Source: Streptomyces sp. B21-105
Lineage (GTDB): Bacteria > Actinomycetota > Actinomycetes > Streptomycetales > Streptomycetaceae
NCBI RefSeq assembly: GCF_036898465.1
Contig: NZ_JARUMJ010000001.1
Location: forward strand, 3,906,001-3,970,000
DNA: 64,000 nucleotides
Reading direction: 5' to 3'
In this document: positions 3,580 through 32,260 of the stretch, piece after piece
How the letters are laid out: the number at the start of each line of letters is the position of its first letter
Numbering within the stretch: position 1 is the stretch's first letter
Translations under genes and position numbers: made by a program
Notes under the pieces: generated by a model
What the model was told of the DNA's origin: nothing
The model's database searches: none
The model's input: only the letters and a program-made list of their open reading frames with translations

Positions 3580-3596
3580 TTCTGTCGTGTTGTCGG

Positions 3597-5430: not shown

Positions 5431-5450
5431 CGCGCCCCGGCCGCGGGACG

Positions 5451-5494
5451 CCGAAGGGGCCGTCCGCACCACGGATGGCGGACGGCCCCTTCGG
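5451..5494 (-). terminator. Terminator hairpin downstream of ndh
   Basis: A perfect 17-base inverted repeat (5451-5467 and 5478-5494, core GAAGGGGCCGTCCGC) with a 10-base loop lies 51 bases past the ndh stop codon. Confidence 0.8.
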
Positions 5495-5544
5495 GGGTGT
5501 TCAGTGACCGTGGGCCCGCAGGCCCGAGGTCGGGTGACCTGAGG

Positions 5545-6939: not shown

Positions 6940-6973
6940 GCCATCGAGTATCCACCCGGTTCAGGGGGGTCGC

Positions 6974-6991
6974 TCGTGAGCCCCTTCACAA
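6974..6991 (-). promoter_or_regulatory. Rex operator-like site, proximal
   Basis: Read on the minus strand it is TTGTGAAGGGGCTCACGA. The left half matches the Rex consensus TTGTGAA-N4-TTCACAA fully and the right half at five of seven. It lies 35 bases upstream of the ndh start, where a repressor would act. Confidence 0.6.
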
Positions 6992-7188
6992 GCTTGTCGG
7001 GGGTGTGTGCTATCCTCCGCGGCCCACGTGATCCACATCATGACGGAGAGCGGGAACCCGCGTGCAGGGCATGGCGTTGTCAATGCCGCGTGAGCTGCCT
7101 CTCCGGCTCCGGAAGGCCTCTGTGAGCGTCCCGCGACAGGCCTCGCGAGGCCCTCGTGAGAGACCCGCGAGACGCCCCCGTCCGTCGC

Positions 7189-7206
7189 TTTTGAACACGT
7201 TCACAC
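7189..7206. promoter_or_regulatory. Rex operator-like site, middle
   Basis: TTTTGAACACGTTCACAC matches each heptamer half of the Rex consensus at six of seven positions with the expected 4-base spacer. Confidence 0.5.
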
Positions 7207-7268
7207 GAGGGTTGGGCCCGCGGAAGGGTCAACCGGGACACGATCGTCCTCCGACAGGGCCGAATTCC

Positions 7269-7286
7269 TTGTGAAGAACTTCACGA
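7269..7286. promoter_or_regulatory. Rex operator-like site, distal (best match)
   Basis: TTGTGAAGAACTTCACGA matches the Rex consensus in 13 of 14 defined positions. It is 80 bases from the middle site, close to a whole number of helical turns. Confidence 0.6.
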
Positions 7287-7321
7287 ACTTTCCCGGCGGG
7301 CTGTCGCGCGGACGCACCGAA

Positions 7322-7339
7322 GGGGCCCCGAAGGGCCCC
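7322..7339 (-). terminator. Terminator of the eno-divIC-DUF501-ppx operon
   Basis: On the minus strand this reads GGGGCCC-TTCG-GGGCCCC, a 7-base stem closed by a stable TTCG tetraloop, 64 bases past the ppx stop. Confidence 0.65.
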
Positions 7340-7402
7340 CAGGACCGCTCATCCGCGCATCCTGCCTGCTCAGCAGAGTGCGCGGAGCGGCCCGGCCGAG
7401 GA

Positions 7403-8344
7403 CTACGCGACCGACCACGCGATGCCGTCGAGGATGTCGTGTTCGCTCACGACGACCTCCTGTGCGCCGGTCCGCTCCATGATCGCCAGCAGTACCAGGG
7501 CGCCCGCCCCGATCACGTCCACCCGGCCGGGGTGCATCGCGCCGATCGCCGCCCGCTCGGCGTGCGTCGAGCGCAGCAGCCGCCCGGTGATCGCCCGGAC
7601 CTCGTCGTGCGAGACGCGCGAGTGGTGGATGGCCGCCGAGTCGTACTCCGGCAGTTGCTGGGCGATCGCCGAGACCGTGGTGACCGACCCGGCCAGGCCG
7701 ACGAGGGTGCGCGCCTCGCGCAGCGGGACCGTCCGCTCGGCGAGGTCCAGGGCGGCCTCGATGTCGGCGCGCATCGCCGCGATCTGCTCCTCGGACGGCG
7801 GGTCGGTGACCTTCCCGTCCACGACCAGGTGCCGCTCGGTCATCCGCACGCAGCCGACGTCGACCGAGCGGGCCGCGCGCACCCGGTCGTCGCCGACGAC
7901 GAACTCCGTCGAGCCGCCGCCGATGTCCACGACCAGGTAGGGCCGGGCCAGGTCGTCGCGGCCGGTGAGCTCCTTCGTGGCGCCGGTGAACGAGAACTCG
8001 GCCTCCTGGTCGCCGGTGATGACCTCCGGCTCGACGCCCAGGATGTCCAGCACCCCGCGCACGAACTCCTCCCGGTTCTCGGCGTCCCGGGAGGCGGACG
8101 TGGCGACGAACCGCAGCCGCTGCGCGCCGAGTTCCTTGATGGCGGCCGCGTACTCCCGGCAGGCGGCGAACGTCCGCTCCAGCGCCTCGGGCGCGAGCCG
8201 GCCGGTGCGGTCGACGCCCTGGCCGAGCCGGACGATCGTCATCCGGCGGTCCAGGTCGACGAGTTCGCCGGTCTCCGGGTCCGCGTCGGCGACGAGCAGC
8301 CGGATGGAGTTCGTGCCGCAGTCGACGGCGGCGACCCGCGTCAC
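7403..8344 (-). CDS. ppx: Ppx/GppA family exopolyphosphatase
   Basis: A 313-residue enzyme of the ASKHA superfamily that releases phosphate from polyphosphate or hydrolyses pppGpp. The phosphate-binding motifs are visible: AAVDCGTNSIRLLVAD at the N-terminus, VDIGGGSTEFVVG in the middle and GLAGSVTTVSAIA later. GTG 8344 was chosen because it overlaps the DUF501 stop codon by GTGA, a sign of translational coupling; the open frame upstream is only the shadow of DUF501. It is the short, single-module form usual in actinobacteria and the last gene of the eno operon. Confidence 0.92.
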   Translation of the reverse strand: MTRVAAVDCGTNSIRLLVADADPETGELVDLDRRMTIVRLGQGVDRTGRLAPEALERTFAACREYAAAIKELGAQRLRFVATSASRDAENREEFVRGVLDILGVEPEVITGDQEAEFSFTGATKELTGRDDLARPYLVVDIGGGSTEFVVGDDRVRAARSVDVGCVRMTERHLVVDGKVTDPPSEEQIAAMRADIEAALDLAERTVPLREARTLVGLAGSVTTVSAIAQQLPEYDSAAIHHSRVSHDEVRAITGRLLRSTHAERAAIGAMHPGRVDVIGAGALVLLAIMERTGAQEVVVSEHDILDGIAWSVA

Positions 8345-8880
8345 GGGGCCTCCCCCTCGACCGGCTGGGGAAGGGTCACGCAGGCGCCCTTGCGCCACCA
8401 CTCGGGGAGCATCTCCAGCGCCTCGTCGCCGAGCGGGTTCACGCCCGGGCCCGCGGCCAGCGAGTGAGCCACCAGAACGTGCAGACACTTCACCCGGTCC
8501 GGCATGCCGCCCGCGCTGGGGAAGTTCCTCAGCTCCTCGATCTCGTCCCGGCGCCGGACGTAGTCCTCGTGCGCGGCCCGGTAGGCGGCGGCGAGCCCGG
8601 GGTCGGACTGCAGCCGCTCCGTCATCTCCTTCATCACGCCGTTCGCCTCCAGCGTGCCGATCGCCGAGTTGGCCTTCGGGCACGTCAGGTAGTACAGCGT
8701 CGGGAAGGGGGTGCCGTCGGGCAGCCGCGGGGCCGTCTCGACGACGTCCGGATGGCCGCACGGGCAGCGGTGCGCGATCGCGCGCAGGCCGCGCGGCGGG
8801 CGTCCGAGCTGCTGCTTGAAGGCCTCGACGTCCGCGTCGGTGGGCTCGGTGCGCGGAGTGGTCGGCGGGGGCGTCTGCAT
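8341..8880 (-). CDS. DUF501 family protein
   Basis: A 179-residue cytoplasmic protein of unknown function. It begins MQTPPPTTP; DVEAFKQQLGRPPRGLRAIAHRCPCGHPDVVET follows, with a Cys-Pro-Cys-Gly-His cluster that could bind metal, then YYLTCPKANSAIGTLEA and a C-terminal MPDRVKCLHVLVAHSLAAGPGVNPLGDEAL. DUF501 is nearly always found between divIC and ppx in actinobacteria, as here. ATG 8880 starts where the family starts; the Shine-Dalgarno is weak (GGAAAG about 6 bases away). Confidence 0.88.
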   Translation of the reverse strand: MQTPPPTTPRTEPTDADVEAFKQQLGRPPRGLRAIAHRCPCGHPDVVETAPRLPDGTPFPTLYYLTCPKANSAIGTLEANGVMKEMTERLQSDPGLAAAYRAAHEDYVRRRDEIEELRNFPSAGGMPDRVKCLHVLVAHSLAAGPGVNPLGDEALEMLPEWWRKGACVTLPQPVEGEAP

Positions 8881-8884
8881 ACCT

Positions 8885-9041
8885 GTCTTTCCATCGGTCA
8901 GTCGGTCGGGCGGGCGGGCGCGACCGGTCACTCGGGCGATCCGGTCGATCGAGCGGGCCACCGGTCAGTCAGTCAGCCAGTCGGTCGGTCCATCGGTCGG
9001 TCGACCGGAGCGGCCGGTCGACGGAACGGCCGGGCGACCGG
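8885..9041. repeat. Degenerate CGGTC/AGTC short-repeat spacer
   Basis: The 161-base gap between divIC and DUF501 is made largely of imperfect 4-5 base units (GGTC, AGTC, CGGTCGGTC, with GACCGGTC palindromes), including GGTCAGTCAGTCAGCCAGTC near 8962. No reading frame or operator is evident. Confidence 0.6.
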
Positions 9042-9518
9042 TCAGTGGTCGGAGGCGTCGGACTTGTCGACCCCGTCCCAGACATTGGAGTACCAGGGGC
9101 GGTCGGCCGCCCCGAGGTCGGCGCGCGACTGCCTGGCGGCGTCCGGGTCGACGACGATGTAGCCGGTCTCCCCCGGCAGCACGTAGTGCAGCCGCAACCG
9201 GATCTGCTGCTCGGCGTACGCGTCGTCCTGCCAGCGCGCCTTGAGGTCGCGCAGCTGCTCGACGCGTTCGCCGGCCTGCTGCTTCTCGCGCTCCAGCTCG
9301 GCGATCTCGGCGCGCTGGGAGACGTACTGGCGCATCGGGTAGGCCAGGGCCACGATCAGCGTGCACAGGACGAGCGCCAGCAGGGCCGCGCGGCCGGTGA
9401 GGCGGGAGCGGCGGGCCTGGCGCTTGGTCTGCGAACGGTAGACGCGGGCCGCGGTCTGCTCGCCGAGCAGCTTGATCCTGGTCGCGGTGGAGAAACGGTC
9501 CCGGTCCTTCACGGCCAT
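9042..9518 (-). CDS. divIC: Septum formation initiator family protein (FtsB/DivIC-like)
   Basis: A 158-residue single-pass membrane protein of the division machinery, expected to bridge FtsL and FtsQ. A basic cytoplasmic N-terminus (to about residue 42) is followed by one membrane helix (ALLALVLCTLIVALAYPM, about 45-62), then a leucine/glutamate coiled coil (about 66-95), then the conserved region YAEQQIRLRLHYVLPGETGYIVV. The C-terminal tail is acidic. It follows eno with a 140-base gap and probably shares its transcript, though that gap contains a 9-base inverted repeat (9548-9586). Confidence 0.9.
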   Translation of the reverse strand: MAVKDRDRFSTATRIKLLGEQTAARVYRSQTKRQARRSRLTGRAALLALVLCTLIVALAYPMRQYVSQRAEIAELEREKQQAGERVEQLRDLKARWQDDAYAEQQIRLRLHYVLPGETGYIVVDPDAARQSRADLGAADRPWYSNVWDGVDKSDASDH

Positions 9519-9547
9519 GTGCTGCGCCTCCCGTCTCCCACGTGCGT

Positions 9548-9586
9548 ACGTCCCCGCACACGGTACGGGACCGAGTACGGGGACGT
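9548..9586. repeat. Inverted repeat between eno and divIC
   Basis: ACGTCCCCG (9548-9556) faces CGGGGACGT (9578-9586) across 21 bases. It could be a partial terminator or a processing hairpin lowering divIC relative to eno. Confidence 0.45.
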
Positions 9587-9658
9587 TCGTGCGACTGGCT
9601 AAGCCTTACCCCGGGTGGGGTCAGCCGTTGCTGTGCTCAGCGGTTCGCCGAGCCGCGC

Positions 9659-11323
<1,665 letters not shown>

Positions 11324-18719: not shown

Positions 18720-19266
18720 CCGCCAGCCGGTACGGCTCACCCGGAACGCAGTGGCCGTGCCCCGTCAGCCGTCGCCCTCGGGTGCGCTCACCCCGCGTGG
18801 AAACGGCCCGGGGCCTTGGTCGGGTTGCCCCCGCCGGGCAGTCGCTGCCCGGGGCAGGCCGCCAACACCTTCTCCATCGCGGACTTCTCCGCCCCGGTGA
18901 CCCACAGCTCGTACTTCCGCTTCACCGCGACCTGCGCCGCGACGTACGTGCAGCGGTAGGCCTTGTTGGGCGGCAGCCACGTCGCCGCGTCACCGTCCCC
19001 CTTGGAACGGTTGGTGCTCGCGTCAACGGCCAGGAGGTTGAGCGGGTCGTTGGCAAGCGCTATCCGCTTGGCGGCGTCCCAGTACTTGGCGCCCTTCTGC
19101 CAGGCGTCGGAAAGGGCGACGACATGGTCGATGTCGACCTTGCTGCTGCCCCGCCGGTAGGTCACGGCCTTCCCCGAGTACGGATCCGATTCCAGCACCC
19201 CGGAGGACACCTTGCAGACGCCGCCGGTGAACTCAACCTTGTCCAGGTCCCGCTTGAGGATGTCGT

Positions 19267-19272
19267 CGCGGG
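19267..19272. repeat. Transposon insertion core, left copy
   Basis: CGCGGG, identical to 25496-25501. The two copies flank the element as in Tn554-type insertion, where a short core is carried at each side. Confidence 0.88.
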
Positions 19273-19282
19273 TTATCTCTAT
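19273..19282 (+). repeat. Left terminal inverted repeat
   Basis: TTATCTCTAT; pairs perfectly with 25486-25495. The next base differs, so the repeat is 10 bases. Confidence 0.88.
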
Positions 19283-19300
19283 CTCTCTCCTCAACGCGAT

Positions 19301-19369
19301 GCACATGAGGCACAGCCGTAACCGATCCCTGTCCCTTGCCGTTATCAGTCACACCATGAGGCACATGAG
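19301..19369 (+). repeat. Left subterminal repeats
   Basis: GCACATGAGGCACAGC (19301-19316) and ATGAGGCACATGAG (19356-19369) share GCACATGAG in the same orientation. The 16-base form recurs inverted at 25403-25418. They lie between the end and tnpA, where accessory recombinase sites would be expected. Confidence 0.7.
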
Positions 19370-19396
19370 TGATATCGGAGACAGAGGGCAGATCCC

Positions 19397-20518
19397 GTGA
19401 CGTTACGCACAGAGAAGGCCGTATCGCCCACCACCGGCGAGATCACCTGGCTCCTGGTCGACGAGGAGACGTACGCGCCTCATCCCGAGGCCCGCGAGTT
19501 CTCCCTGTATCTGCGCGGAGCAGGTCGATCGCCACAGACACAGCGCGCGTACATCCCCAGGGTCGGTCGCTTCCTCAGCTGGTGCGCGGAGCGAGGCATC
19601 GACTGGAAGACCATCCGGCTCGGTGACATGAGCCTGTTCAAGTTCCACGTCGAACGGACACCGACACGACATGGCCGGCCTCCGTCCGGAAAGACGGTCA
19701 ACGCCACGCTCACCGCGGTGTGCGAGTTTCTCCGCTTCTGCGCGGTCCAGGGCCATGTGGATCACGAGGTCGCGGCGCGTCTCAGCGAACCGCGCTTCCT
19801 CACCCATGCCCCGGCCGGCTTCGACCCCGGCGAGGGCGGCCAGCATCTGATGGTCAAAGCCCGTGTCCTCAAGGCGCCGGAGATCGAGCGGGCGCCACAG
19901 ACTCTCACCGGTGCCCAGATGGACCAGATGCTCGATGCCGCTCGCACCGCGCGTGACCGGCTGCTGCTGACCGTCCTGGTGGAGGCGGGCCTCCGCATCG
20001 GCGAAGCCCTCGGGCTGCGGCGTGAGGACATGCACCTGCTCCCGGACTCCACACATCTCGGCTGCCGGACCGGTGGTGCCCACCTGCACGTCCGTCCCCG
20101 CCAGGACAACGAGAACGGGGCACGCGCCAAGGCCGGCCGGCACCGTGCGGTGCCCCTAGTTCAGACCGCCGTTCACCGGTACCGCGAGTATCTGGCCGAG
20201 CGGGAAGACGTTTCCGGAGCGGCAGGCTGCGACTACGTATTCGTGAATCTCGTCGGCGGCTGGGCGGGCCGTCCGATGTCGTACTCGAACGCGAAGCAGG
20301 TCATCGAGCGCATCGGGGACCGTTGCGGCCTGCGTGCCCGACCGCACGTGATGCGGCATACAGCGGCAACCCGCTGGATCCGCAGCGGCGTGGCACCCGA
20401 TGTCGTACAGACCTTGCTGGGGCATGCGTCGTCGGCCAGCACGGCTGTCTATCTCCACGCTCAGGACGAGGACCTTCGATCGGCCGTCGACAGCCTCACC
20501 CTGGAGATCGCGCGATGA
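19397..20518 (+). CDS. Tyrosine recombinase, TnpA-like
   Basis: A 373-residue site-specific recombinase. An N-terminal SAM-like core-binding domain (about 30-130) is followed by the catalytic domain with all residues in place: Arg 200 ([12 protein letters not shown]), Lys 245 (ARAKAGRHR), His 317 and Arg 320 ([10 protein letters not shown]), His 343 (LLGHAS) and Tyr 352 (TAVYLH). GTG 19397 has GAGGG 8 bases upstream and is the first start after the left end. Its stop overlaps the next gene (ATGA). It should cut and rejoin the element ends together with the second recombinase. Confidence 0.92.
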
Positions 20519-22716
20519 CATCGAGCCCCGTGCTCGCCACGATTCCCTCGCAGTCAACCGCGCTCGCCGACTGGTCCGCCTGGCTCGCGAAACGCCTCGC
20601 TTCCGATTGGCGAGCGACCGAATGGGATCCGGCCAAGGCACTGTTCACAGCTGATCCAGACAATCCGACGACCCACGTGTTCACCTGCGTAGTCGCGGCT
20701 TGCTCCACGCACGTCGGAAGTAATGGCAGTCGCTGCGACGCCTGCCGCAAAGCCCGTCTCCTCAGAAAAAATCCTGCGGACTTCGACACGACGTACGCCC
20801 CGGTGGTGACTCGTCGACGGCCGAACGTCACGGACGGAGTGAAGCCAGGGGTCTCCCAGTTCTCGCTGGCACGGGTCTCCCCGGCCGTGCGACACGAGAT
20901 TCTGTATGGGCTTCAGCAACGCGACGACGCTGGAATCAGCCTCGTCCCCCAACGCGTGCGCCGCATCGTGGCCAGCCTCCCGCAGGAGCTCGACTCCCTC
21001 CTGAGCCTCGACTCCGGCTTCTCCTCCAAACTCCCCGCCGCTGCCAGAGGCGTCCTCAACAGCGTCCTCCTTCACATCCGATGTGCCCGGGCGGAGTTCG
21101 AATGTGCCGACCCCACCTCGGGCGACGTCTGGGAATGCGCGCTGGTGGGCCTCACTGCAGGTCGGGGCAGAAAGTACAAAGCCGTTCATGGCGTGATCGA
21201 CTTCCGGCCCGCACGACAGACGTGGCTGCGGGAACTCGTCAAGGAGTACAGGCGCACTGCACGACCCGATGTTCTGGAGCTGAGGCAGACCGTGTACGCC
21301 GCGACGATCGCGTCGGCCGCTCTGTCTCACCGCCCCGAGGGAGACGCCCCTGAGCGGCTGTCGATGGCGGACATGAACGCCGTAGTGGACCACTTCCGCA
21401 TCAGCAAACGCCCCGAGGACGGGCACGACCACTCGACGAGCCACAGGCGAGCGCTGCTGCGGCGCTGGCGTGCGTTTCTGGAGTTCGCCCGGCAAGCCGG
21501 GATGATGGACCACATCCCCGGCGGGTTCGCCGTCAATCCCCGCTTTCACGCCATCGCGGCGATCGAGGTGACCGAGGACGACATCGGCCGAGCAGTTCCC
21601 GAACATGTCATCGCCCAACTCGATGCGCACATCAACCTGCTGGGCAGGTCCACGGCCTACGAGAGCGGCGGTTGGGCCACTGCGGACTTCGCCCGCATGT
21701 ACCAGGTGGTCTACACAGTCCTGAGGGACACAGGGCGCCGCCCGGGCGAGGTCACCAGCCTGCGGCGAGACTGCCTGGAGTGGATCGACGGCAAGCCGAC
21801 GCTGATCTACGACAACCACAAGCGTCGCCGACACGGCCGCCGCCTGCCGATCTCCGAGAGCACCGCCCGGGAGATCGAGGCCTGGCAGAGGGAACTGAAG
21901 GCTCTCCCCCCGGTGCCGGCCTGCACCCAGTGGCTGTTTCCCTCTCCCGGTCAACGCAACCGTCCCCGCCGCCGTCACCTCACTGCGTCACAGTTCTGCA
22001 GCCGCATCTTCCGTATCTGGGTCGACGAGCTGATCCCCACCATCTGGGACGAGCGCCTGGACGACAACGGCGAACCACTGGCATATGACCGCACCAAGAT
22101 CGTCCCCTACGGCTTCCGTCACGCCTACGCTCAACGCCACGCAGACGCGGGCACTCGCCCCGATGTCCTTCGAGAACTGATGGACCACCGGTCGCTGGAC
22201 GTCACCATGGGGTACTACAAGGTCTCCCTCAGCCGGAAACAGGAAGCCGTACGAACGGTCGCGTCGCTCGCCGTGGACCGGCACGGAGAATCCCGTGGCT
22301 TCAGCGACCCACTGGCCTACGAAGTGGAGAGCGTCGGGGTTCCGTACGGCGGCTGCACCGAGCCGAGCAACGTCAAGGCCGGAGGCGGGCACTGCCGCAT
22401 CCGCTTCCAGTGCGCGGGCTGCGACTTCTACCGGCCCGACCCCTCCTACCTCCCGGCCCTGGAACAGCAGATCGCGGACCTGCGGGCCGACAAGGAAGCC
22501 GCTCTAGCGATGGAGGCAGCGGACTGGGTTGTTCGCAATCTCGATGACCAGATCCTCGCGTACTCGAAGTCGGCCGACGAGATGCGAAGGAAGCTCGACG
22601 CGCTGCCCGCCGAGGAGCGCGCGGTCGTCGAATCCGCCTCGCGCGAGCTGCGCAAGGCCCGCTCCGCAGCGGCCTTCGTCCCCTTGCAGGCACTGACGAC
22701 ACGGAGCCCCGAATGA
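20515..22716 (+). CDS. Tyrosine recombinase, TnpB-like (large)
   Basis: A 733-residue recombinase. A Cys/His cluster near residues 58-77 ([20 protein letters not shown]) looks like a zinc knuckle; the catalytic domain lies at about 390-580 with Arg 409 (DTGRRPGEV), Lys 436 (DNHKRRRHG), YGFR at 532-535 (the usual first His is Tyr), His 558 (LMDHRS) and Tyr 567 or 568 (MGYYKV). A C-terminal [16 protein letters not shown] adds a second Cys cluster. The length and the paired smaller recombinase match Tn554 TnpB. The ATG at 20515 overlaps the tnpA stop, whereas an upstream in-frame extension is only shadow of tnpA. Confidence 0.9.
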
Positions 22717-23318
22717 GAAGTCCCGCCGCCTCCGGCAGCAATGACCGGAACACACGGGTCGAGCGCCTGCGCGCCAGCCGCGCCAAGGACAGCGAGGACA
22801 AGACCAAGCGCGCGCTCGATGCAGTGGACGGCCTTCTCCGCTCGGGACTGCGTATCACCGTAGCCCAGGTGGCGCGGGACGCGGCGGTGTCCACGTGGTT
22901 CGTCTACAACCAGCCCCAGGTGCACCAGGCCGTTCAGGACGGCACCGCCGCCCAGCGAGAGCGTGTGCGTGTGCGTGACAAGTTCCCCGTTCCGGAGACA
23001 CGACAGGTCTCCTCTACCGGGCTGCGGACGGATCTCGCCCTGGCACGCGAAGAAATCAAGGACCTCAAGAAGGAACGCGACCGCCTCCGGACCCGGGTCC
23101 GGCTGTCTCTCGGCGCCGAGCTGGACGAGGTGGACCGAAACGAGCTGATCGAGCGGGTGCAGCAATTGGAGCAGCGGAACACCGCCCTGAGCCAGGAGCT
23201 CTCAGAGGCCAAGGCCCGGATCACCTCCCTGGAAGGCCAGTTGAGTCGGACAGAAGACGATCTCACCGCCGCGCGTGTCAGTCTCCGCCGTGCCATGCGG
23301 GCCGTTCCGTCTCCGTAG
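22713..23318 (+). CDS. TnpC-like DUF6262 family protein
   Basis: A 201-residue basic protein coupled to tnpB by ATGA. The N-terminal half contains a helix-turn-helix-like stretch (LRITVAQVARDAAVSTWFVYNQP); the C-terminal half (about 105-195) is a charged coiled coil (LAREEIKDLKKERDRLRTRV and onward). Tn554 TnpC is not essential but sets orientation and efficiency of transposition; the same accessory role is inferred. The DUF number is from memory of similar proteins. Confidence 0.8.
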   Translation: MRSPAASGSNDRNTRVERLRASRAKDSEDKTKRALDAVDGLLRSGLRITVAQVARDAAVSTWFVYNQPQVHQAVQDGTAAQRERVRVRDKFPVPETRQVSSTGLRTDLALAREEIKDLKKERDRLRTRVRLSLGAELDEVDRNELIERVQQLEQRNTALSQELSEAKARITSLEGQLSRTEDDLTAARVSLRRAMRAVPSP

Positions 23319-23338
23319 ATCCATGCTGTGCCGCCGCC

Positions 23339-23385
23339 CCTCGTGGCTGTCTGGCTTTCGTGCCGTCTGCCGGACAGCCACGAGG
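23339..23385. terminator. Hairpin between tnpC and the cargo genes
   Basis: CCTCGTGGCTGTCTGG (23339-23354) faces CCGGACAGCCACGAGG (23370-23385), 16 bases with one G-T-type mismatch and a 15-base loop, placed to stop transcripts from both convergent gene sets. Confidence 0.7.
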
Positions 23386-23437
23386 AACACCGGCGCAAAA
23401 TGGTCAGGACTTCGCCAATGCACAGTCCAGGTCATGC

Positions 23438-24586
23438 TCAATCGGTGTCCGTCGCGGCCAACATTGCCAGCCGTCGGCGTTCCGGAGAGACCGCGGCGAG
23501 ACCGATGTCCCAGGCCACACGCTCGAACCACTTGGTTTCGGCCCCGAAGCCATACCAGGCGCATTCCCGTGCACGTGCCTCGACCTCCTCCACAGGGTCG
23601 CCCTCTGCGATTCCGGAGAGGCTGGCCAGAGACTGCCACGCGGCCAGACGGCCGTAGGCCCCACGGATACCAGAGTTGTAGGCACCTCCCGTGGACGCGG
23701 CAGCGAAGAGGACCCGCCACGCCTGGTCCGGTGGGCAGGCCGCGACCGAGAGGGCGGTCTTCTTCCCCGCTCCCTTCAGGCACTCCAGCCCCAGTCCCAG
23801 CAACATGCTCGGTACCGACTCGGCCTCCAGAGGAGCTGCCAGATCGAAGACTCGTGCCTCGATCCGACCGTTCGACTCCTCGGCCCAGTTCGCCACAGCA
23901 GCGCCGATGCCCTTGGCCGCGGCTTCGGTCGTCGTCTCCTCGGCCGAAGGCACATGCGCCCCAGCATCGCCCCGCACCTTGCTGCCTGCCGACGGGTCGT
24001 ACGGCATCGAATGACTGCCGCCGCGGGCACCGTAGCTCGGCAGATCCGGCTGTCCTTCCACATCGGACAGCGCCAACGGCAGCCATCCCAGCGGATGGTG
24101 CCTCCAGTGCGGCGACATCGCCCACCCTGCGATCCCCGGGGTCTCCATAACGCCGGCACCCCTGAGCACCAGCTCATGGACCAGGCACGCACGCAGTTCC
24201 TCAGTGGCGTGTCCGGTGAACGCCACCGCCAGTTCCTTTGCCGGTTGGCTGGAGGCCAGCAGGGAGGCCGCGTAACGGTCCAGCTTCCCGTCAGCAGCCC
24301 CCGCAGAGGAGACCAGCCGCAACGCCTGGGCGACGTTCCCGGGACCGGACGTGGTGGCCAGCAGCCGGAGCAGATAGTCGAAGACGCTCCTGCACTGCCA
24401 GATCCGCCCGGCGTCGGAGCCGTAAGCACCTGCGAGCGCGATGCCGAGGTCCGCGAGGAACGCGGCATCCCCCCTCGCGAGACTGCGGTCAGCCACCTTC
24501 CACACGTCAGTGACACTCTTCAGGTCCGGCAGCTTCGTCACGATCTTCTGTATGCGGTCAGCCACGGTACGGAGCGTACGCGTCAC
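23438..24586 (-). CDS. DUF6183-like protein of unknown function (transposon cargo)
   Basis: A 382-residue, largely alpha-helical, soluble protein without signal peptide or membrane segments. Visible landmarks are a helical N-terminus, HATEELRACLVHELVLRGAGV, a central charged region, VAACPPDQAWRVLFAAASTGGAYN and a C-terminal WYGFGAETKWFERVAWDIGLAA. The last block recalls DUF6183 proteins of Streptomyces, an assignment from memory. It lies 45 bases behind the HNH cargo gene on the same strand, so the two are probably one transcript. The start is uncertain: GTG 24586 or GTG 24565, neither with a clear ribosome site. Confidence 0.7.
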   Translation of the reverse strand: MTRTLRTVADRIQKIVTKLPDLKSVTDVWKVADRSLARGDAAFLADLGIALAGAYGSDAGRIWQCRSVFDYLLRLLATTSGPGNVAQALRLVSSAGAADGKLDRYAASLLASSQPAKELAVAFTGHATEELRACLVHELVLRGAGVMETPGIAGWAMSPHWRHHPLGWLPLALSDVEGQPDLPSYGARGGSHSMPYDPSAGSKVRGDAGAHVPSAEETTTEAAAKGIGAAVANWAEESNGRIEARVFDLAAPLEAESVPSMLLGLGLECLKGAGKKTALSVAACPPDQAWRVLFAAASTGGAYNSGIRGAYGRLAAWQSLASLSGIAEGDPVEEVEARARECAWYGFGAETKWFERVAWDIGLAAVSPERRRLAMLAATDTD

Positions 24587-24631
24587 ACAGCCCGAAGCTC
24601 GATCGCATTTTCCCAGGTCACTGCAGCCCCA

Positions 24632-25414
24632 TCAGTCCTCGCACTGCTTCAGCATCATCGCCTTGTCCGCCGGGGTAACCGGGAGGTCGTACTTCAACGA
24701 CACCTGAGCAAAGCGCACCACGTAGGAGCAACGGATCTGCTTGTTCGGGGGCAGCCAGGTCGCGGGCCCCGAGTCGCTCTTCGCGCCATTGGTCGGTCCG
24801 TCCACCGGGATCAGGTTGAGCGGGTCATTGGCGATATCCTCCCGCTTGCCCTTCGTCCAGCGCGAGGCACCCATCTGCCAGTCGTACGACAACGGCATGA
24901 CGTGGTCTATCTGGACTGTCGTCGCGCGGGACTTGGCCCACTCGATCGTCTTCCCGGTGTACGGATCGTGCAGCGTCATGGTGGTGACGATGCAGTCAGA
25001 GCCAGCCCGGAAGCGGACACTCTCGCCATCGCGTTTCAAGAGATCGTTTCGCGAGTCACACCCATTGCGGGCGAAGGGAATGCCGCCCGGAGCCGAATCC
25101 ATCCAGGCGTAGCCGAACTTGTCCCGCTCGTACCCCGTCTTGGGGCCGCGCCCCTTCGTCGCCACCTTCTCGATCAACGACCGCGCCTTGGCTTCATCCG
25201 CGGTGGAGGTGATCGCCGCCAGCCCTGGCTTCGTGCCGTCCGGATTGTCCAGCGGGTTCACAGCCCGACCGTTGCCGACGGCCGAAGCGGCAGGGCCGGA
25301 AGGTCCGCTGTCCGCAGGTGGAGCAATGTCCTTGCAACCGGTGGCCACAAATCCGGCGGCCACCACGACGGCGGATGCCATGAGGACACGCCGTCCTCCA
25401 CTGCTGTGCCTCAT
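24632..25414 (-). CDS. Secreted HNH nuclease-like (GmrSD C-terminal/DUF1524) lipoprotein, transposon cargo
   Basis: A 260-residue homologue of the gene the element interrupts. Signal peptide with lipobox VATGC (Cys 27), an Ala/Pro-rich linker, GRGPKTGYERDKFGYAW, GCDSRNDLLKRD at the point matching the insertion site, then the HNH core TTVQIDHVMPLSYDWQMGAS, NDPLNLIPVDGPTNGAKSD and PATWLPPNKQIRCSYVV. The His and Asn positions of the family are kept. The start may be ATG 25414 or ATG 25432; the start region overlaps the right subterminal repeat, so promoter and recombinase sites are interleaved. Relative to the target, three of six core bases differ. It would restore the lost secreted activity. 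Confidence 0.88.
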   Translation of the reverse strand: MRHSSGGRRVLMASAVVVAAGFVATGCKDIAPPADSGPSGPAASAVGNGRAVNPLDNPDGTKPGLAAITSTADEAKARSLIEKVATKGRGPKTGYERDKFGYAWMDSAPGGIPFARNGCDSRNDLLKRDGESVRFRAGSDCIVTTMTLHDPYTGKTIEWAKSRATTVQIDHVMPLSYDWQMGASRWTKGKREDIANDPLNLIPVDGPTNGAKSDSGPATWLPPNKQIRCSYVVRFAQVSLKYDLPVTPADKAMMLKQCED

Positions 25415-25419
25415 GTGCC
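25403..25419 (-). repeat. Right subterminal repeat
   Basis: GCTGTGCCTCATGTGC, the exact inverse of 19301-19316, with GGCACATGAG (minus strand) at 25410-25419. It sits 77 bases from the right end, against 28 on the left. Confidence 0.7.
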
Positions 25420-25485
25420 TCTCAGTAGGCATACCACACCACCCCCTGGATGAGCTGCGAAAAGTCCGCGATGGCGCCGCGAAGC

Positions 25486-25495
25486 ATAGAGATAA
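25486..25495 (-). repeat. Right terminal inverted repeat
   Basis: ATAGAGATAA, the inverse of 19273-19282. Confidence 0.88.
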
Positions 25496-25501
25496 CGCGG
25501 G
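25496..25501. repeat. Transposon insertion core, right copy
   Basis: CGCGGG, identical to 19267-19272. Confidence 0.88.
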
Positions 25502-25962
25502 TGTCGCACGAGTTGGAGTCCGTGTCCGCCCAGGCGGAGCCGAACCGGTCGCGGGCGTAGCCGGTCTTGGGGGCGCGCCCCTTCACCGGCAGCGACTCGG
25601 CCGCCGCGAGGGCCGCCCCGTCGCCTGCCTTTCCGGCGCCCGCCGTGGCGCCCGGGCCACCGGAGCCCGCACCGCCGGAATCCGCGCCGGTGGTCTGCTG
25701 CTTGCAGCCCGTCAGCGGCACGGCGCACATCAACGCGACGGCGACCGCCGTCCCAGCCCTCAGACGTCTCACGCGTCCCTCCCCTGCATGGCCGCTGCCC
25801 GCCCCGCACGGGGCGGATTCCCCTGACGTGGTCCGGACACACCCTAGCGAGGGGGCGTTCGGAAGCAGTCGGGAGGTCCAGACCACAACGGTCCCAAGTG
25901 GGCATATCGCACATCACGGGAATATCGTCGGTGGAGAGTCACCTTCGGGAAGGGAGCTCTGG

Positions 25963-26400: not shown

Positions 26401-27821
26401 TCTCGCTTCCGTCTGCCGCTGGTGCGGCAGGGTTGCGCCACCTGCCCGCCCCGCGCTCGCCTTGCGGCGGGGGCGGGTGGCGCGGGTCTTGTGGTCGGCT
26501 CCACGAGGCTTCGACACCGCCGGGGCGGTGTCCTGGTCTCCGGCCACTCCGGTACCAGTCACGCAGGCTGCCGCGAGAGCGGCGAGGTTGAGTGCGGCGT
26601 TGTCGTCCCGGTCGAGAACCAGGCCGCAGGCGTCGCATTCGTACGTCCGGACGTGCAGCGGCAGCTTGGCTTTCACCGCGCCGCACCCGGAACAGGTCTT
26701 CGAGGACGGGTACCAGCGGTCCGCGACCACCATGCGGGGGCGTGGCGCTGGAGGGTCTTGTAGTCGAGCTGGCGGCGAATCTCCCCGAACCCGGCGTCGG
26801 CGATACGGCGGGCCAGGCGCCGGTTGCGGAGCATCCCGGCGACGTTGAGGTCCTCGACGACGACAGTGCCGTACTCGGCCGCGACACTCGTGGTGAGCTT
26901 GTGCAGGGCGTCTTCGCGGAGGTTCGCGACGCGGTGGTGGACCTTGTTCCGCTGGGCGTTGGCCTTCTCCCACCGCTTCGAGGGCTTCTGGCCGGTCCTG
27001 CGGTCGGGGCCCTGGCGGCGGGAGACGACACGGGACGCGCGGCGCAACTGTTTGCGCGCCTGGTCGTAGTGTCCGGGGTTCGCGACGGTGCGGATCTCGC
27101 CCGTGCTGTCGGCCGTCACCGCGAGGGTCTTCACCCCGAGATCGATGCCGACCGTCACGTCCGGGCGCGTGACGCGCTCGAGGTCGTGCTTCACCTCTGC
27201 CTGGAAGGACACGAACCAGCGTCCGCGTTCATGCCGGACCGTCGCGGACAGGATCCGGGCCGTCCCGCCCTGGACACGGTTGAGGAGCTTGTGCGTCGGC
27301 TCGTGGACGCGGACCGTGCCCAGCCGGGGCAGCGTCACGTGCCGGCCGTCGGTGTCGACACGGATCGTGCCGGTGGTGAACCGGCAGGACGGACGAGCCT
27401 TCCGCTTCGACTTGAACCGGGGCGCGCCCACCCGCTTGCCGCGACGCTTGCCGTTCTTCGACTTCGCGTAGTTGTCGAACGCGGCCGACGCGTTGGCCAG
27501 GCCGGTGCTGTACGCCTCCTTGGAGTTCTCCTGCCACCAGGACGCGAAACGCGGGTCGGTGTACTTGGCGGTGTTGAACGCCTTCCGCAGGGCGGGCAGC
27601 GACCACGGCCGCCACTCGGCCAGGTCCTCCTCGGGGACGCCGTAGGTCTCCTCGGCCTTCCGCTGCCACCACGAGGCGGTCACCCAGCCGACAGCCCAGT
27701 TGTACGCGGCCCGCGCGGCACCGCAGTGCGAGCGCGACGCGGCCTCCTGGGCGGCGTTCGGGTCCAGGGCGAAGCGGAACGCCTGGACCACGAACCCGGA
27801 CTGCGGCTGGAACTTCTTCAC
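26365..27821 (-). pseudogene. TnpB RNA-guided nuclease of IS607, single-base frameshift
   Basis: An otherwise complete TnpB of about 485 residues. RuvC residues are kept in GIDLGVKTLAV (Asp) and VVVEDLNVAGM (Glu); the zinc ribbon TCSGCGAVKAKLPLHVRTYE, ECDACG and the final catalytic Asp in LDRDDNAALNLAAL are in another frame. The break is at a run of five G (26736-26740, plus strand); adding one base restores LQRHAPRMVVADRWYPSS. It may be a real inactivation, a slippage site, or a sequencing slip. GTG 27821 overlaps the tnpA stop. Without correction the product stops short and lacks the zinc ribbon. Confidence 0.88.
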
Positions 27822-28393
27822 TCGGCGGCCTCGCCGGTCGCTACGGCCACCGCGCGGGCGGCCCGGTTCTTCGCAGCCCGCCGCCCGTACAAGCGCGCAC
27901 ACATCGACGTCAGTACCTCGGTGATGTCCCGCACCAGGTCATCGGCGGTCTCGGCGGGGTCGAGGACGACCAGCCGCCGCCCGGACGCCGATAGCACGGC
28001 CTCCAGGTGCTCGACGCCGAACCGGGCCAGCCGGTCGCGGTGCTCCACCACGATCACCGCCGCTTGCGGGTCGGACAGCAGCCGGTGCAGCTTGCGGCGC
28101 CGCCCGTTCAGCCCCGAGCCGACCTCGGTCACGACCTGCGCAACCGGCAGGCCGAGCCCGGTAGCTCCTTGGACCACGCGGGCGACCTGCCGGTCAAGGT
28201 CCGGCTTCTGGTCCGCCGATGAGACCCGGCAGTACGCCACGACCCGGCCGGATGCCTCCGAGGCGGGCTCGTCGACCAGCCACGTCCCGGATGGCGTCTG
28301 GCGCACAGGGACCGGCATACGGCCCTCTTTCGCCCACGCCCACGCGGTCTGGTAGTGCACGCCGTTGCGTGCCGCCCACTCGGAAAGCTTCAC
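27818..28393 (-). CDS. IS607-family serine transposase (TnpA)
   Basis: A 191-residue serine recombinase. A MerR-like helix-turn-helix opens it (VKLSEWAARNGVHYQTAWAWAKEG), followed by the catalytic domain with the active Ser in VVAYCRVSSADQKPDLDRQ, EVGSGLNGRRRKLHRLL and VVVEHRDRLARFG. Small N-terminal-HTH serine recombinases of this layout are typical of IS607. GTG 28393 matches family starts; GTG 28420 in the same frame is possible. Confidence 0.9.
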   Translation of the reverse strand: MKLSEWAARNGVHYQTAWAWAKEGRMPVPVRQTPSGTWLVDEPASEASGRVVAYCRVSSADQKPDLDRQVARVVQGATGLGLPVAQVVTEVGSGLNGRRRKLHRLLSDPQAAVIVVEHRDRLARFGVEHLEAVLSASGRRLVVLDPAETADDLVRDITEVLTSMCARLYGRRAAKNRAARAVAVATGEAAE

Positions 28394-28464
28394 ACGATCA
28401 AGATAGCAGATGAGAAACACTGAGGTTTACTGATGAACCACGCAGCAGTTGTCAGCCCCCTCTG

Positions 28465-31400
28465 CTACGAACCCAGGACCGTCGCCAGGAACTCGCCCAC
28501 CCAGCCCAGGAGTTCCCGTCCGACCAGCGGCTTGCCGCCGACCTTCGCGGTCTTCGGGCGGGGCACGAGGACCTGGTGCGCGGCCGGCTTGATGACCGAC
28601 CCGGGGTACAGCCGCTTCAGGCGCAGTTCCTGCGACTCGCGCAACTCCACCGGCGCGAAGCGGATGTTGGCGCCCTGGAGCACGATCTCACCGACGCCGC
28701 ACGCGCGGGCCAGCATCCGCAGCCCCGCCACCAGCAGCAGGTTCTCCACCGGCTCGGGCAACTTGCCGTACCGGTCGACGAGTTCCTCACGGACCGCCCT
28801 GACGTCGTCCTCCGAGTTGGCGGAGGCGATCGCCCGGTAGGCCTGCAGCCGCAGCCGCTCACCGGGCGCGTAGTCGTGCGGGACGTGCGCGTCGACCGGC
28901 AGCTCGATCTTGACCTCGAGCGGCGGCTCCTCCTCGATCTCGCCGGTCTCCAGCTGACGCCGGTAGTCCGCGACGGCCTCGCCGACCATCCGCACATACA
29001 GGTCGAAGCCGACGCCCGCGATATGGCCGGACTGCTCGCCGCCGAGCAGGTTGCCCGCGCCGCGGATCTCCAGGTCCTTCATCGCCACGTACATGCCGGC
29101 GCCCATCTCGGTGTGCTGGGCGATCGTCGCGAGCCGCTCGTGGGCGGTCTCCGTGAGCGGCTTCTCCGGCGGGTACAGGAAGTACGCGTAGCCGCGCTCC
29201 CGGCCACGGCCCACTCGGCCGCGCAGCTGGTGCAGCTGGGACAGGCCGAAGGTGTCGCCGCGCTCCACGATCAGCGTGTTCGCGTTGGAGATGTCGATGC
29301 CGGACTCGACGATCGTCGTCGAGACGAGCACGTCGAACTTCTTCTCCCAGAAGTCGACGACGACCTGTTCCAGCGCCGACTCCGACATCTGGCCGTGCGC
29401 GGTGGCGATGCGCGCCTCGGGGATGATCTCGCGCAGTCTCGACGCCGCCCGGTCGATCGACTCGACCCGGTTGTGGATGTAGAAGACCTGGCCCTCGCGG
29501 AGCAGTTCACGGCGGACGGCGGCGCCGATCTGCTTCTGCTCGTAGGGGCCGACGAAGGTGAGCACCGGGTGGCGCTCCTCCGGGGGCGTGGTGATCGTCG
29601 ACATCTCGCGGATGCCCGTCACCGCCATCTCCAGCGTCCTCGGGATCGGGGTCGCCGACATCGTCAGGACGTCCACGTTCGCCCGGAGCTTCTTCAGCTG
29701 CTCCTTGTGTTCGACGCCGAAACGCTGCTCCTCGTCGACGATGACCAGGCCGAGGTCCTTGAACTTCGTCTCGGAGGAGAACAGACGGTGGGTGCCGATG
29801 ACGACGTCCACGGAGCCCTCGCGCAGCCCCTCCAGGGTGGCCTTCGCCTCCGCGTCCGTCTGGAAGCGGGACAGGGCGCGCACCTTCACCGGGAACTGCG
29901 CGTACCGCTCGCTGAACGTGCCGAAGTGCTGCTGCACCAGCAGGGTCGTCGGCACGAGGACGGCGACCTGCTTGCCGTCCTGGACGGCCTTGAAGGCGGC
30001 CCGCACCGCGATCTCCGTCTTGCCGTAGCCGACGTCGCCGCAGATCAGGCGGTCCATCGGGACCGTCTTCTCCATGTCGTCCTTGACCTCGGCGATGGTG
30101 GTGAGCTGGTCGGGCGTCTCCGCGTAGGGGAAGGCGTCCTCCAGCTCGCGCTGCCAGGGCGTGTCGGTGCCGAAGGCGTGGCCGGGGGCCGCCATCCGCG
30201 CGCTGTACAGCTTGATCAGGTCGGCGGCGATCTCCTTGACGGCCTTCTTGGCGCGCGCCTTGGTCTTGGTCCAGTCAGCTCCGCCGAGCCGGTGCAGGGT
30301 GGGGGCCTCGCCGCCGACGTACTTGGTGATCTGCTCCAGCTGGTCGGTGGGGATGTAGAGGCGGTCGCCGGGCTGGCCGCGCTTGGCGGGCGCGTACTCC
30401 ACGACCAGGTACTCGCGCGTGGCGCTCTGGACGGTGCGCTGCACCATCTCGATGTAGCGGCCCACGCCGTGCTGCTCGTGGACGATGTAGTCGCCCGCCT
30501 CCAGGGTGAGCGGGTCGATGGTCTTCCTACGGCGCGCGGGCATGCGCGCGCCGTCCTTGCCGGCCGCTTTCTGCCCGGTCAGGTCGGTCTCGGTGAGGAC
30601 GGCGAGGCGCAGCGCGTGGTCGACGAAGCCGTAGTCGATCGAACCGCAGGAGACGTGCACGACGGACGGGCTCAGCTCGGTCAGGTCGCTGTCGAGGCGG
30701 GCGGCGACGCCCTCCCCGCCGAGCACCTCGACCGTGCGGGCGGCCGGGCCGTGCGCCTCGGTGACGAAGGCGACGCGCCAGCCGTCGGCGAGCCAGCCCT
30801 TGGTGTCGGCGAGGGCCTTGGCGGTGTCGCCGCGGTAGGTCTCGGGTGCGCGCATGCCGAGCTTCAGCGTGCCGTCGTCCAGCTCGTCGTCGGCCGCGAA
30901 CGGCGACACCGACCACCACATCATGTCCAGCTCGCGCGCGTGTTCGCGGACGTCGGCGATCGACCACAGGGAGGCCGCGCCGACGTCGATGGGCGCCTCG
31001 CCGCCGCCCGCCGTGGCCGCCCAGGAGGCCTGCAGGAACTCGTGCGAGGTCGCCACCAGGTCGGCGGCGCGGGTACGGACCCGCTCCGGGTCGCAGACGA
31101 CGGCCATCGCGCCCTTGGGCAGGACGTCGATCAGCAGTTCCATGTCATCGACGAGCACCGGGGCCAGGGACTCCATGCCCTCGACGGCGATGCCCTCGGC
31201 GATCTTCCCGAGCAGTTCGCCCAGCTCGGGGTGCTGTTCGGCGAGGACACCCGCGCGCGTGCGGACGTCGTCCGTCAGCAGCAGTTCACGGCAGGGCGGG
31301 GCCCACAGGCCGTGTGCGGCGACTTCCAGGGAGCGCTGGTCGGCGACCTTGAAGTAGCGGATCTCCTCGACGTCGTCGCCCCAGAACTCGACGCGCAGGG

Positions 31401-31998
31401 GGTGTTCCTCGGTGGGCGGGAACACGTCCAGGATGCCGCCGCGGACGGCGAACTCGCCGCGCTTCTCGACGAGCTCCACGCGCGCGTAGGCGGCCGCGGC
31501 GAGCGCTTCGACGATCTCGTTCAGGTCGGCGGTCCCGCCGGAGCGCAGCGCCACCGGTTCCAGGTCGCCGAGGCCCTTGACCTGCGGCTGGAGCACCGAG
31601 CGGACGGGTGCGACGACCACCGAGACGGGGCCGGTCTCCGGGTCGTCGGGGCGCGGGTGGGCCAGTCGGCGCAGCACGGCGAGGCGGCGGCCGACGGTGT
31701 CGCTGCGCGGGCTGAGGCGCTCGTGCGGGAGCGTCTCCCAGGAGGGGTACTCGACGACGCCGTCCGGCGGGAGCAGTGAGCGCAGGGCGGCCGCGAGGTC
31801 CTCGGCCTCGCGGCCGGTGGCGGTCACCGCGAGGACGGTGCGGCCGGTCTCGCGGGCGAGGGCGGCGATCGCGAAGGGGCGGGCCGCCGGAGGACCGACC
31901 AGATCGACGTGCATGCGGTTGCCGTCGGCGGCCGCGGGGATGGCTTCCGCGAGGGCGGCGTCCTTGACGACGGCGTCGAGCAGACCGTGCAGGCTCAT
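28465..31998 (-). CDS. mfd: Transcription-repair coupling factor
   Basis: An 1,177-residue DNA translocase that removes stalled RNA polymerase and recruits UvrA. Domains in order: UvrB-like N-terminal region (to about 330), RNA-polymerase-interacting domain (LEAGDYIVHEQHGVGRYIEM, about 500), helicase lobes with Walker A GDVGYGKTEIAVRAA, DEEQRFG box and the motif SATPIPRTLEMA, the TRG-type lobe 2 (GRVGRGRERGYAY) and a C-terminal TRCF domain. ATG 31998 gives the normal N-terminus MSLHGLLDAVV; the open frame upstream is shadow. Two DnaA-box nonamers lie upstream. Confidence 0.96.
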   Translation of the reverse strand: MSLHGLLDAVVKDAALAEAIPAAADGNRMHVDLVGPPAARPFAIAALARETGRTVLAVTATGREAEDLAAALRSLLPPDGVVEYPSWETLPHERLSPRSDTVGRRLAVLRRLAHPRPDDPETGPVSVVVAPVRSVLQPQVKGLGDLEPVALRSGGTADLNEIVEALAAAAYARVELVEKRGEFAVRGGILDVFPPTEEHPLRVEFWGDDVEEIRYFKVADQRSLEVAAHGLWAPPCRELLLTDDVRTRAGVLAEQHPELGELLGKIAEGIAVEGMESLAPVLVDDMELLIDVLPKGAMAVVCDPERVRTRAADLVATSHEFLQASWAATAGGGEAPIDVGAASLWSIADVREHARELDMMWWSVSPFAADDELDDGTLKLGMRAPETYRGDTAKALADTKGWLADGWRVAFVTEAHGPAARTVEVLGGEGVAARLDSDLTELSPSVVHVSCGSIDYGFVDHALRLAVLTETDLTGQKAAGKDGARMPARRRKTIDPLTLEAGDYIVHEQHGVGRYIEMVQRTVQSATREYLVVEYAPAKRGQPGDRLYIPTDQLEQITKYVGGEAPTLHRLGGADWTKTKARAKKAVKEIAADLIKLYSARMAAPGHAFGTDTPWQRELEDAFPYAETPDQLTTIAEVKDDMEKTVPMDRLICGDVGYGKTEIAVRAAFKAVQDGKQVAVLVPTTLLVQQHFGTFSERYAQFPVKVRALSRFQTDAEAKATLEGLREGSVDVVIGTHRLFSSETKFKDLGLVIVDEEQRFGVEHKEQLKKLRANVDVLTMSATPIPRTLEMAVTGIREMSTITTPPEERHPVLTFVGPYEQKQIGAAVRRELLREGQVFYIHNRVESIDRAASRLREIIPEARIATAHGQMSESALEQVVVDFWEKKFDVLVSTTIVESGIDISNANTLIVERGDTFGLSQLHQLRGRVGRGRERGYAYFLYPPEKPLTETAHERLATIAQHTEMGAGMYVAMKDLEIRGAGNLLGGEQSGHIAGVGFDLYVRMVGEAVADYRRQLETGEIEEEPPLEVKIELPVDAHVPHDYAPGERLRLQAYRAIASANSEDDVRAVREELVDRYGKLPEPVENLLLVAGLRMLARACGVGEIVLQGANIRFAPVELRESQELRLKRLYPGSVIKPAAHQVLVPRPKTAKVGGKPLVGRELLGWVGEFLATVLGS

Positions 31999-32141
31999 GG
32001 AGGGCTTTCCGTCCGAGGGACCGGGGTACGTCCGGGGGTGCGGGCGTAGCCGGTCCGGGGTGGGCAACACGAAGGGCCCGACGCGTGTCACGGGCCGGGG
32101 GTGTCCAGAGTACGACGGGGGCGGTGCGGTTCGCCGGGGGC

Positions 32142-32172
32142 TGTGGACAACCCGGCCGAGGGCTGTGGACAA
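32142..32172 (-). promoter_or_regulatory. Tandem DnaA boxes upstream of mfd
   Basis: TGTGGACAA at 32142-32150 and again at 32164-32172, each the exact complement of the Streptomyces DnaA-box consensus TTGTCCACA, in the same orientation with 22-base spacing, within a repeated GGCTGTGGACAACCC. Confidence 0.6.
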
Positions 32173-32205
32173 CCCCGGGGGCGGCCTGCCCCTGAGGGCC
32201 TCGTC

Positions 32206-32260
32206 CTCAAGCGCCTCCGAGGGCGTCCTCAAGCGCCTCCGATGGCCTCGTCCTCAAGCC
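32206..32260. repeat. CGTCCTCAAGC intergenic repeat
   Basis: Three copies of CGTCCTCAAGC, two within a 20-base tandem (CGTCCTCAAGCGCCTCCGA), ending in CCCCGGACGGGC. Similar GC-rich CGTCCTCAA-CGCCGGACGGGC units occur near terminators in many Streptomyces genomes. Confidence 0.6.

Follow-up and report, generated by a model that had tools for sequence, protein, structure and literature searches.

Introduction

Several mobile elements restore, or may restore, what their insertion destroys, and these are among the closest described counterparts of the transposon considered here, an element of 6,223 bp (positions 19273–25495) in a 64,000-nucleotide stretch of Streptomyces sp. B21-105 (contig NZ_JARUMJ010000001.1, positions 3,906,001 to 3,970,000), the whole of which is referred to below as the window. 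According to the available text of the original reports, Tn552-II of Staphylococcus aureus, a Tn554-like transposon with tnpABC, carries tgl, a homologue of its target gene; its authors propose that tgl may rescue the disrupted gene, and they also weigh a combined role of the target and tgl in transposition (PMC12486829). Tn554 and the strand-biased circularizing integrative elements insert site-specifically, have a 6-bp core, and encode an ordinary tyrosine recombinase and a large one together with a third protein (PMC10214605). The helper-embedded phage-inducible chromosomal island 11capE disrupts a capsid gene and bears a capsid gene of its own as a possible functional backup (PMC10111431), and in islands inserted in tRNA or protein genes (tDNA islands, icd), the attP sequence restores the target (PMC10111431, PMC4383910).

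The window element, which is of the tyrosine-recombinase type, splits a gene for a DUF1524 lipoprotein (the target) and contains a full-length gene of the same family (the cargo). Judging from sequence comparisons, it is probably a site-specific Tn554-like transposon that targets the mfd-linked gene of a DUF1524 lipoprotein and brings with it a replacement for the gene that it breaks.

Structure of the element and its target

The transposon is bounded by 10-bp terminal repeats, TTATCTCTAT on the left (19273–19282) and its inverted copy ATAGAGATAA on the right (25486–25495), and both ends are flanked by the 6-bp core CGCGGG (19267–19272 and 25496–25501). A subterminal repeat, GCACATGAGGCACAGC (19301–19316, + strand), is a candidate recombinase site and recurs as an inverted copy at 25403–25418 (− strand), where it encloses the start codon of the cargo. 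Three overlapping reading frames lie on the + strand in the order tnpA (19397–20518; tyrosine recombinase of 373 residues; Pfam Phage_integrase, 5.2e-33), tnpB (20515–22716; large tyrosine recombinase of 733 residues; Pfam Phage_integrase, 3.3e-08), and a tnpC-like gene (22713–23318; 201 residues; Pfam DUF6262, 4e-12), which is the gene order of Tn554, that is, an ordinary and a large tyrosine recombinase followed by a small third protein. In the order of its genes, the specificity of its insertion, and the length of its core, the element is Tn554-like.

The target is read from the − strand. Its N-terminal half (25496–25886; start codon putative, lipobox VPLTGC recognized by eye) ends in one core, and its C-terminal half (18788–19272), which holds the GmrSD_C domain, opens with the other; the C-terminal half has a Pfam GmrSD_C match (2.2e-21), and the N-terminal half is without a Pfam match, yet it can be aligned with homologues. 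Two types of the gene are distinguished by the residues at the insertion site, C-D/G-T-R-D-D-I-L in type A and C-D-T/S-R-N-D-L in type B; the flanks joined with one core provide the codons for CDTRDDIL, which is the sequence of unbroken type-A genes in other genomes (for example, L087 and L161). The cargo (24632–25414, − strand; ATG at 25414) encodes a DUF1524 lipoprotein of 260 residues (Pfam GmrSD_C, 7.3e-18) in the same orientation as the target, and it lies at the end of the element that is joined to the target's N-terminal half. A preliminary description of the window had proposed the inverted ends and flanking cores, the restoration of CDTR-DDIL on removal of the element, the disruption of a DUF1524 lipoprotein gene, and an intact 260-residue homologue inside, and all of this holds; the uninterrupted orthologue that it had suggested seeking in other genomes also exists. 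The window genome (9.2 Mb) has four Pfam GmrSD_C matches, namely the cargo, the C-terminal half of the target, a CNTRE-type gene, and an open frame of 891 residues, and because of these four, no intact gene of type A or B appears to be present in it apart from the cargo.

Recurrence in Streptomyces

A TnpB search of 392 genomes of the genus gave a match at 1e-30 in 73 of them, and in seven of these (the window genome included) the protein was at least 78% identical over nearly its whole length; a search of contigs for the element returned eight loci, all in Streptomyces, five of them new. All 12 distinct Streptomyces elements with TnpB at or above 78% are flanked by the halves of a DUF1524 gene, are inserted in the same codon (C-D/G-T-R), and contain a full DUF1524 cargo, the other 11 cargos being 62–67% identical to that of the window. 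In a survey blind to the cargo, the bare junction CACNCGCRTTATCTCTA was sought in 699 genomes (G000–G391 and G402–G708); it occurred in 11 of the 392 genus genomes and in two of 307 additional genomes sampled from the family, both of them Streptomyces and both duplicating loci already named. All 13 junction-bearing genomes have a cargo of 256–260 codons, open from position +82 of the element. Same-site relatives consistently lacking a DUF1524 gene, which the preliminary description had named as contrary evidence, were found in Streptomyces neither among the 12 tnp-bearing elements nor among the 13 junction-bearing genomes of the 699 searched.

The distinct Streptomyces loci number 16 in total, 12 of them with tnp genes; tnpABC was not found in the fetched stretch of the remaining four (L115, L116, L120, and L186), and the cargo is open in all four. 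L116 has DUF6183 in two frames, together with part of the target's C-terminal half. A chance likeness of cargo and target is ruled out, since the arrangement recurs in 16 distinct loci.

The cargo might, on another explanation, be a passenger gene like any other, useful in its own right as a secreted nuclease, which shares a family with the target only since such genes are common in Streptomyces. DUF1524 genes are in fact abundant, at least 149 of 150 genomes having a match to the cargo among the matches listed, and the remainder of the cargo region varies from element to element. This explanation is nevertheless unlikely, given that all 12 elements contain the DUF1524 cargo, at a constant end and with its start fixed at +82, whereas DUF6183 is present in just five of the 12, and that in Rhodococcus another subfamily, with TnpA 26% identical, likewise sits in a DUF1524 gene and carries one.

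Position of the cargo and selection on it

In the window, the cut target frame continues into the element as an in-frame tail of 24 codons that ends in TGA (25422–25495, − strand), beside the likely ribosome-binding site of the cargo; this is GAGAGG (25418–25423, − strand), a putative Shine-Dalgarno sequence overlapped by the stop codon of the tail. The layout is shared by all 16 loci, where the target frame runs 23 or 24 codons into the element to a stop at +71 or +74, with the first base of GAGAGG at +73 and the start codon of the cargo (ATG or GTG) at +82. Such a layout suggests that the cargo is positioned for use of the target's own transcript. The cargo frame is open in 16 of 16 loci, and the ratio of nonsynonymous to synonymous substitution rates (dN/dS) is below 1 in all eight pairs computed (0.15–0.51).

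Codon differences at the insertion site

The site residues of the cargo are C-D-T-R-N-D in 14 of the 16 loci, as in type-B targets, and C-D-S-R-N-D in the window and L115; in those 14, the difference from the type-B target at the site is silent. For Arg, all 12 targets use the codon CGC, a figure that rests on TnpB-found elements only, since the junction pattern demands CGC in the core and makes targets without CGC undetectable; the codon is CGA or CGG in 16 of 16 cargos, and in host type-B genes it is CGC in 38 of 54. The Cys codon is TGT in 15 of the 16 cargos versus TGC in 11 of the 12 targets. In the window, cargo and target differ in three of the six bases at the site (CGCGAA versus CCCGCG), as the preliminary description had stated; its claim of an altered site in the cargo stands as regards the bases, whereas the altered residue of the window (CDSRND) has turned out to be exceptional.

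Over 127 conserved columns, in which 15 cargos were compared with 54 host type-B genes (a host set for which no type-A gene was returned), the excess of silent differences peaks around the insertion codon, at cargo residues 116–123 with windows of 4 to 8 columns. When the site is set against the rest of the gene in the five nearest hosts of each cargo, the match is lower at the site in 12 of 15. A 24-base profile built from the 12 targets, which eight of the 12 fit when left out, fits none of the 16 cargos, 32 of 61 type-B hosts, and 10 of 19 type-A hosts (a host set different from that of the scan). A further target, that of L120, falls outside this profile through a G at position 2 of its core; with that G allowed, the type-B fit changes from 32 to 34 of 61, none of 12 re-tested cargos fits, and the other four are excluded by the Arg base. 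The cores seen in any of the 12 targets are absent from all 16 cargos. We infer that the silent changes shield the cargo from the recombinases. Both cores are identical in 12 of 12 Streptomyces insertions, although five different cores exist; equal cores would be expected if the most recent transposition took place between sites of one species or if core identity is required.

Two gene types and exchange between element and locus

The target is of type A in eight of the 12 elements and of type B in four, and the cargo is of type B in all 16 loci. The cargo cannot simply duplicate the very gene that is disrupted, and this candidate explanation was rejected, as the cargo is of the other type in eight of the 12 tnp-bearing elements; the diverged homologue of the destroyed gene that the preliminary description had recognized is a full DUF1524 homologue, but one of a second type that is itself a target elsewhere. 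The host set comprised 119 loci (L056–L174), from which 14 without a motif-search match and 13 duplicates were dropped, and L117, at a contig edge, was excluded from the cargo and host sets alike; the scan of silent differences used 54 type-B genes and the profile test 61 of type B and 19 of type A. A tree of 116 rows and 140 columns, built by a quick method and leaving 59 of its 113 inner branches unresolved, places cargos and resident type-B genes among one another, with six label changes, at least four of them forced by starred branches, counts that are approximate. The elements of the window and of G110 share 94% of TnpB and 67% of the cargo, and because of this discrepancy, cargos seem to have been exchanged. 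The cargo of G273 (L177) looks chimeric, with residues 1–150 closer to cargos and residues 151–258 closer to host genes, which would be consistent with a deletion through recombination with the C-terminal half of the target. Element remnants were not found upstream of the 54 host type-B genes, and a cargo origin is thus not demonstrated for any given resident gene; the resident gene in L118 (G144) has CGA and GAT codons as in the window cargo, a sharing whose direction is not assignable.

An ancestor may also have trapped a neighboring resident gene by historical accident, through imprecise excision or recombination, and the cargo would then have been hitch-hiking since, with no role as a replacement. 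The interleaving of cargos and host type-B genes makes exchange between element and locus likely, and there is the one chimeric cargo; however, the open frame in 16 of 16 loci, even where tnpABC was not found, the dN/dS of 0.15–0.51 in eight of eight pairs, and the recoding at the insertion codon render such an accident quite improbable.

Relatives in Rhodococcus

Relatives of TnpB at 51% identity are found on Rhodococcus plasmids; 106 plasmid records match the window TnpB, the matching proteins being annotated as integrases or recombinases, and 284 match a second Rhodococcus TnpB, 11 of these records having been opened. The three opened loci of the 51% relative all sit in, and carry, a DUF1524 gene. 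In L198 and L191, the two whose junctions were read, the element lies in the same CDTR codon, with unequal cores on the two sides, and site-specific insertion, a Tn554 trait, is seen in the same codon in 12 of 12 Streptomyces and two of two Rhodococcus junctions; L192 resembles L198 and L191 by tblastn, with weak target remnants. L191 has a further insertion: a member of a second subfamily (TnpA 26% identical), which has a DUF1524 gene as well, interrupts the C-terminal half of the target at the HNH motif. This locus (516–11218) comprises two different Tn554-like elements in one DUF1524 gene, with five pieces or copies of it within 11 kb.

Among the other opened records, L197 has fragments of the target and, of the cargo, nothing but the end; no DUF1524 match was found in L196 and L199–L201, and L193 is without an annotated DUF1524. 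In L194 (7341–13272; plasmid pR09L01 of R. erythropolis), a second-subfamily element lies after residue 147 of a copy of the other element's cargo, the tnp genes of that other element being missing, a layout that looks like recombination between repeated DUF1524 pieces.

The cargo could also serve as DNA, its homology to the target aiding the integration, excision, or repair of the element. Cargo and target C-terminal half are direct repeats, and L177, L186, and L194 look like recombination products of such copies; on the other hand, the DNA at the insertion site is precisely what has changed, and the dN/dS below 1 and the fixed start position indicate a protein, so this role is very unlikely to account for the cargo.

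Interpretation

In the preferred reading, a site-specific transposon that brings a replacement for its target, insertion at one codon of a DUF1524 gene cuts the target in two, the target's promoter and ribosomes would drive the cargo, such that the cell retains a DUF1524 lipoprotein, and the silent changes at the site would keep the recombinases off the cargo. Subsequent deletions, of which some may reflect recombination of the cargo with the C-terminal half of the target, may leave the cargo as the resident gene, and a resident former cargo may regain a usable site and then be struck again. The replacement-gene interpretation of the preliminary description is, overall, partly supported, with rescue itself a putative function.

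A number of observations speak against this reading or restrict it. As regards the recoding, the supporting result that random sets of 10 columns equaled the value for residues 116–125 once in 20,000 applies to a window picked after the scan and to column sets that ignore the cargos' shared descent, and circular shifts were as high in two of 127; three of the 15 cargos (L036, L048, and L115) have no deficit at the site, the site is within the lowest 5% of windows in just two of 15 (L053 and L116), and the GC content at third codon positions of the cargo is lower beyond the site also (0.836 versus 0.938). As regards the coupling, the other two frames are open in five and nine of 12 elements, which makes the open frame alone a weak argument, and the codon-position bias of the tail is slight (0.233, 0.248, and 0.313); because other frames are often open and this bias is low, the tail frame may be partly a by-product of a binding site, the subterminal repeat of the window overlapping the start codon of the cargo. 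As regards generality, none of 27 distant Streptomyces relatives (L041–L047 and L202–L221, some shortened by contig ends) has a DUF1524 match by tblastn in the fetched stretch; in Rhodococcus, the cargo starts 309 nucleotides inside the element and only 6 codons follow in the target frame before a stop, which indicates that the coupling is not general, the Arg codons are CGA and AGA, which indicates that CGC is unnecessary for that relative, and in L195, a 62% relative of the second subfamily situated in a DUF1524 gene, a cargo was not detected.

A wider proposal can be entertained tentatively, as a real possibility: that the clade is a natural home-and-rescue element, in which selection has favored carriage of a replacement for the target that is silently recoded, proof against the recombinases, and placed for translation from the target transcript, and which after loss of the transposase becomes the resident allele, drifts back toward a usable site, and is hit again. 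The two chromosomal gene types would then be partly shaped by the element, and the strategy would have arisen or been exchanged more than once, because the second Rhodococcus subfamily (TnpA 26%) also brings a DUF1524 gene into a DUF1524 target. The replacement reading, if true, would explain the low-cost targeting of a useful gene, it would provide a natural experiment on the bases read by a tyrosine-recombinase transposon (16 cargos versus 12 targets), and it would show one way for chromosomal alleles to be replaced by transposons.

Neighboring genes and distant relatives

A homologue of mfd (transcription-repair coupling factor, TRCF; 28465–32232, − strand) serves as a landmark next to the N-terminal half of the target; it lies on that side in type-A hosts (e.g., L087, L088, and L161) and in type-B hosts (e.g., L119, L120, and L036), it is located about 6 kb away in L048, and L051 and many short loci gave no match to mfd. 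The gap between target and mfd in the window (26673–28420, − strand) holds two frames that resemble an IS607-type element (OrfB/TnpB-like and serine-recombinase-like), recognized by eye, and the OrfB/TnpB-like protein has an 88% relative upstream of the target in L116 too. Within the element, the slot between tnpC and the cargo is occupied in the window by a DUF6183 passenger gene (23438–24586, − strand), which occurs in five of the 12 tnp-bearing elements, with other open frames in the remaining seven. PADLOC gave only weak matches, to the tnpC protein, and a PDB search with the cargo returned a single, uninformative match to an antibody fragment (E 0.96).

That all Tn554-like relatives carry a homologue of their target was dismissed as a general rule on account of the 27 distant Streptomyces loci. 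These loci were also compared with themselves. L207 (4597–7368) and L208 (10541–13195) contain related Tn554-like elements with an HA-domain helicase beside tnpC, and the C-terminal part of another HA helicase lies 4–5 kb outside, on the tnpA side and in the same orientation; they are possibly a second case of a target homologue, and the matching N-terminal half was not found there. Further self-similar pairs occur in L203–L205, L211, and L212. In L044 (G297; 6711–10837), a near-identical stretch is present twice, 2.8 kb apart, beside the tnpB of the distant relative, and is probably an insertion sequence.

Comparison with known systems

Tn552-II resembles the window element in that its cargo is homologous to the disrupted gene; it is, however, a single element with a YolD-like target, and its tgl keeps a copy of a 7-bp att sequence, the core not being recoded (PMC12486829), whereas the Streptomyces element has a DUF1524 target and its cargos keep no target core. 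In the available text of that report, no description of a comparative set, of coupling, or of takeover of the locus was found for Tn552-II (PMC12486829). Rescue by a target-like gene is therefore not new, having been proposed earlier for one staphylococcal Tn554-family transposon (PMC12486829); the conserved coupling, the silent recoding, and the retention of the cargo after loss of the tnp genes appear to be new, neither these nor the spread over two genera having been found described in the literature searched, and no silent recoding of this sort is described in the available portions of PMC12486829, PMC10214605, and PMC10111431.

The recombinase pair, the third protein, the site specificity, and the 6-bp core are shared with Tn554 and the strand-biased circularizing integrative elements; these copy 6 bp of the donor flank into the new site (PMC10214605), and in the Tn554 family the core brought in from the donor measures 6–7 bp. 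The cores on the two sides are equal in 12 of 12 Streptomyces insertions and unequal in two of two from Rhodococcus. The island 11capE likewise carries a homologue of the gene that it disrupts, but it is a phage satellite concerned with late-gene capture, and recoding was not found described in the available text (PMC10111431). The tDNA and icd islands also repair what they break (PMC10111431, PMC4383910). What such islands reconstruct at the junction is one end of the gene they enter, whereas the Streptomyces element carries a separate, divergent, whole gene. Site-specific elements usually pick harmless sites or rebuild one end of a gene; here, the gene is apparently destroyed, and a separate recoded version is brought along.

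In synthetic cleave-and-rescue and home-and-rescue gene drives, the target is destroyed and a recoded, attack-resistant copy is supplied. By analogy, the Streptomyces element would be a naturally occurring case of 'home and recoded rescue'; the logic of destruction and recoded rescue is common to both, the gene drives being engineered, eukaryotic, and nuclease-based, and their engineers would have reached it independently.

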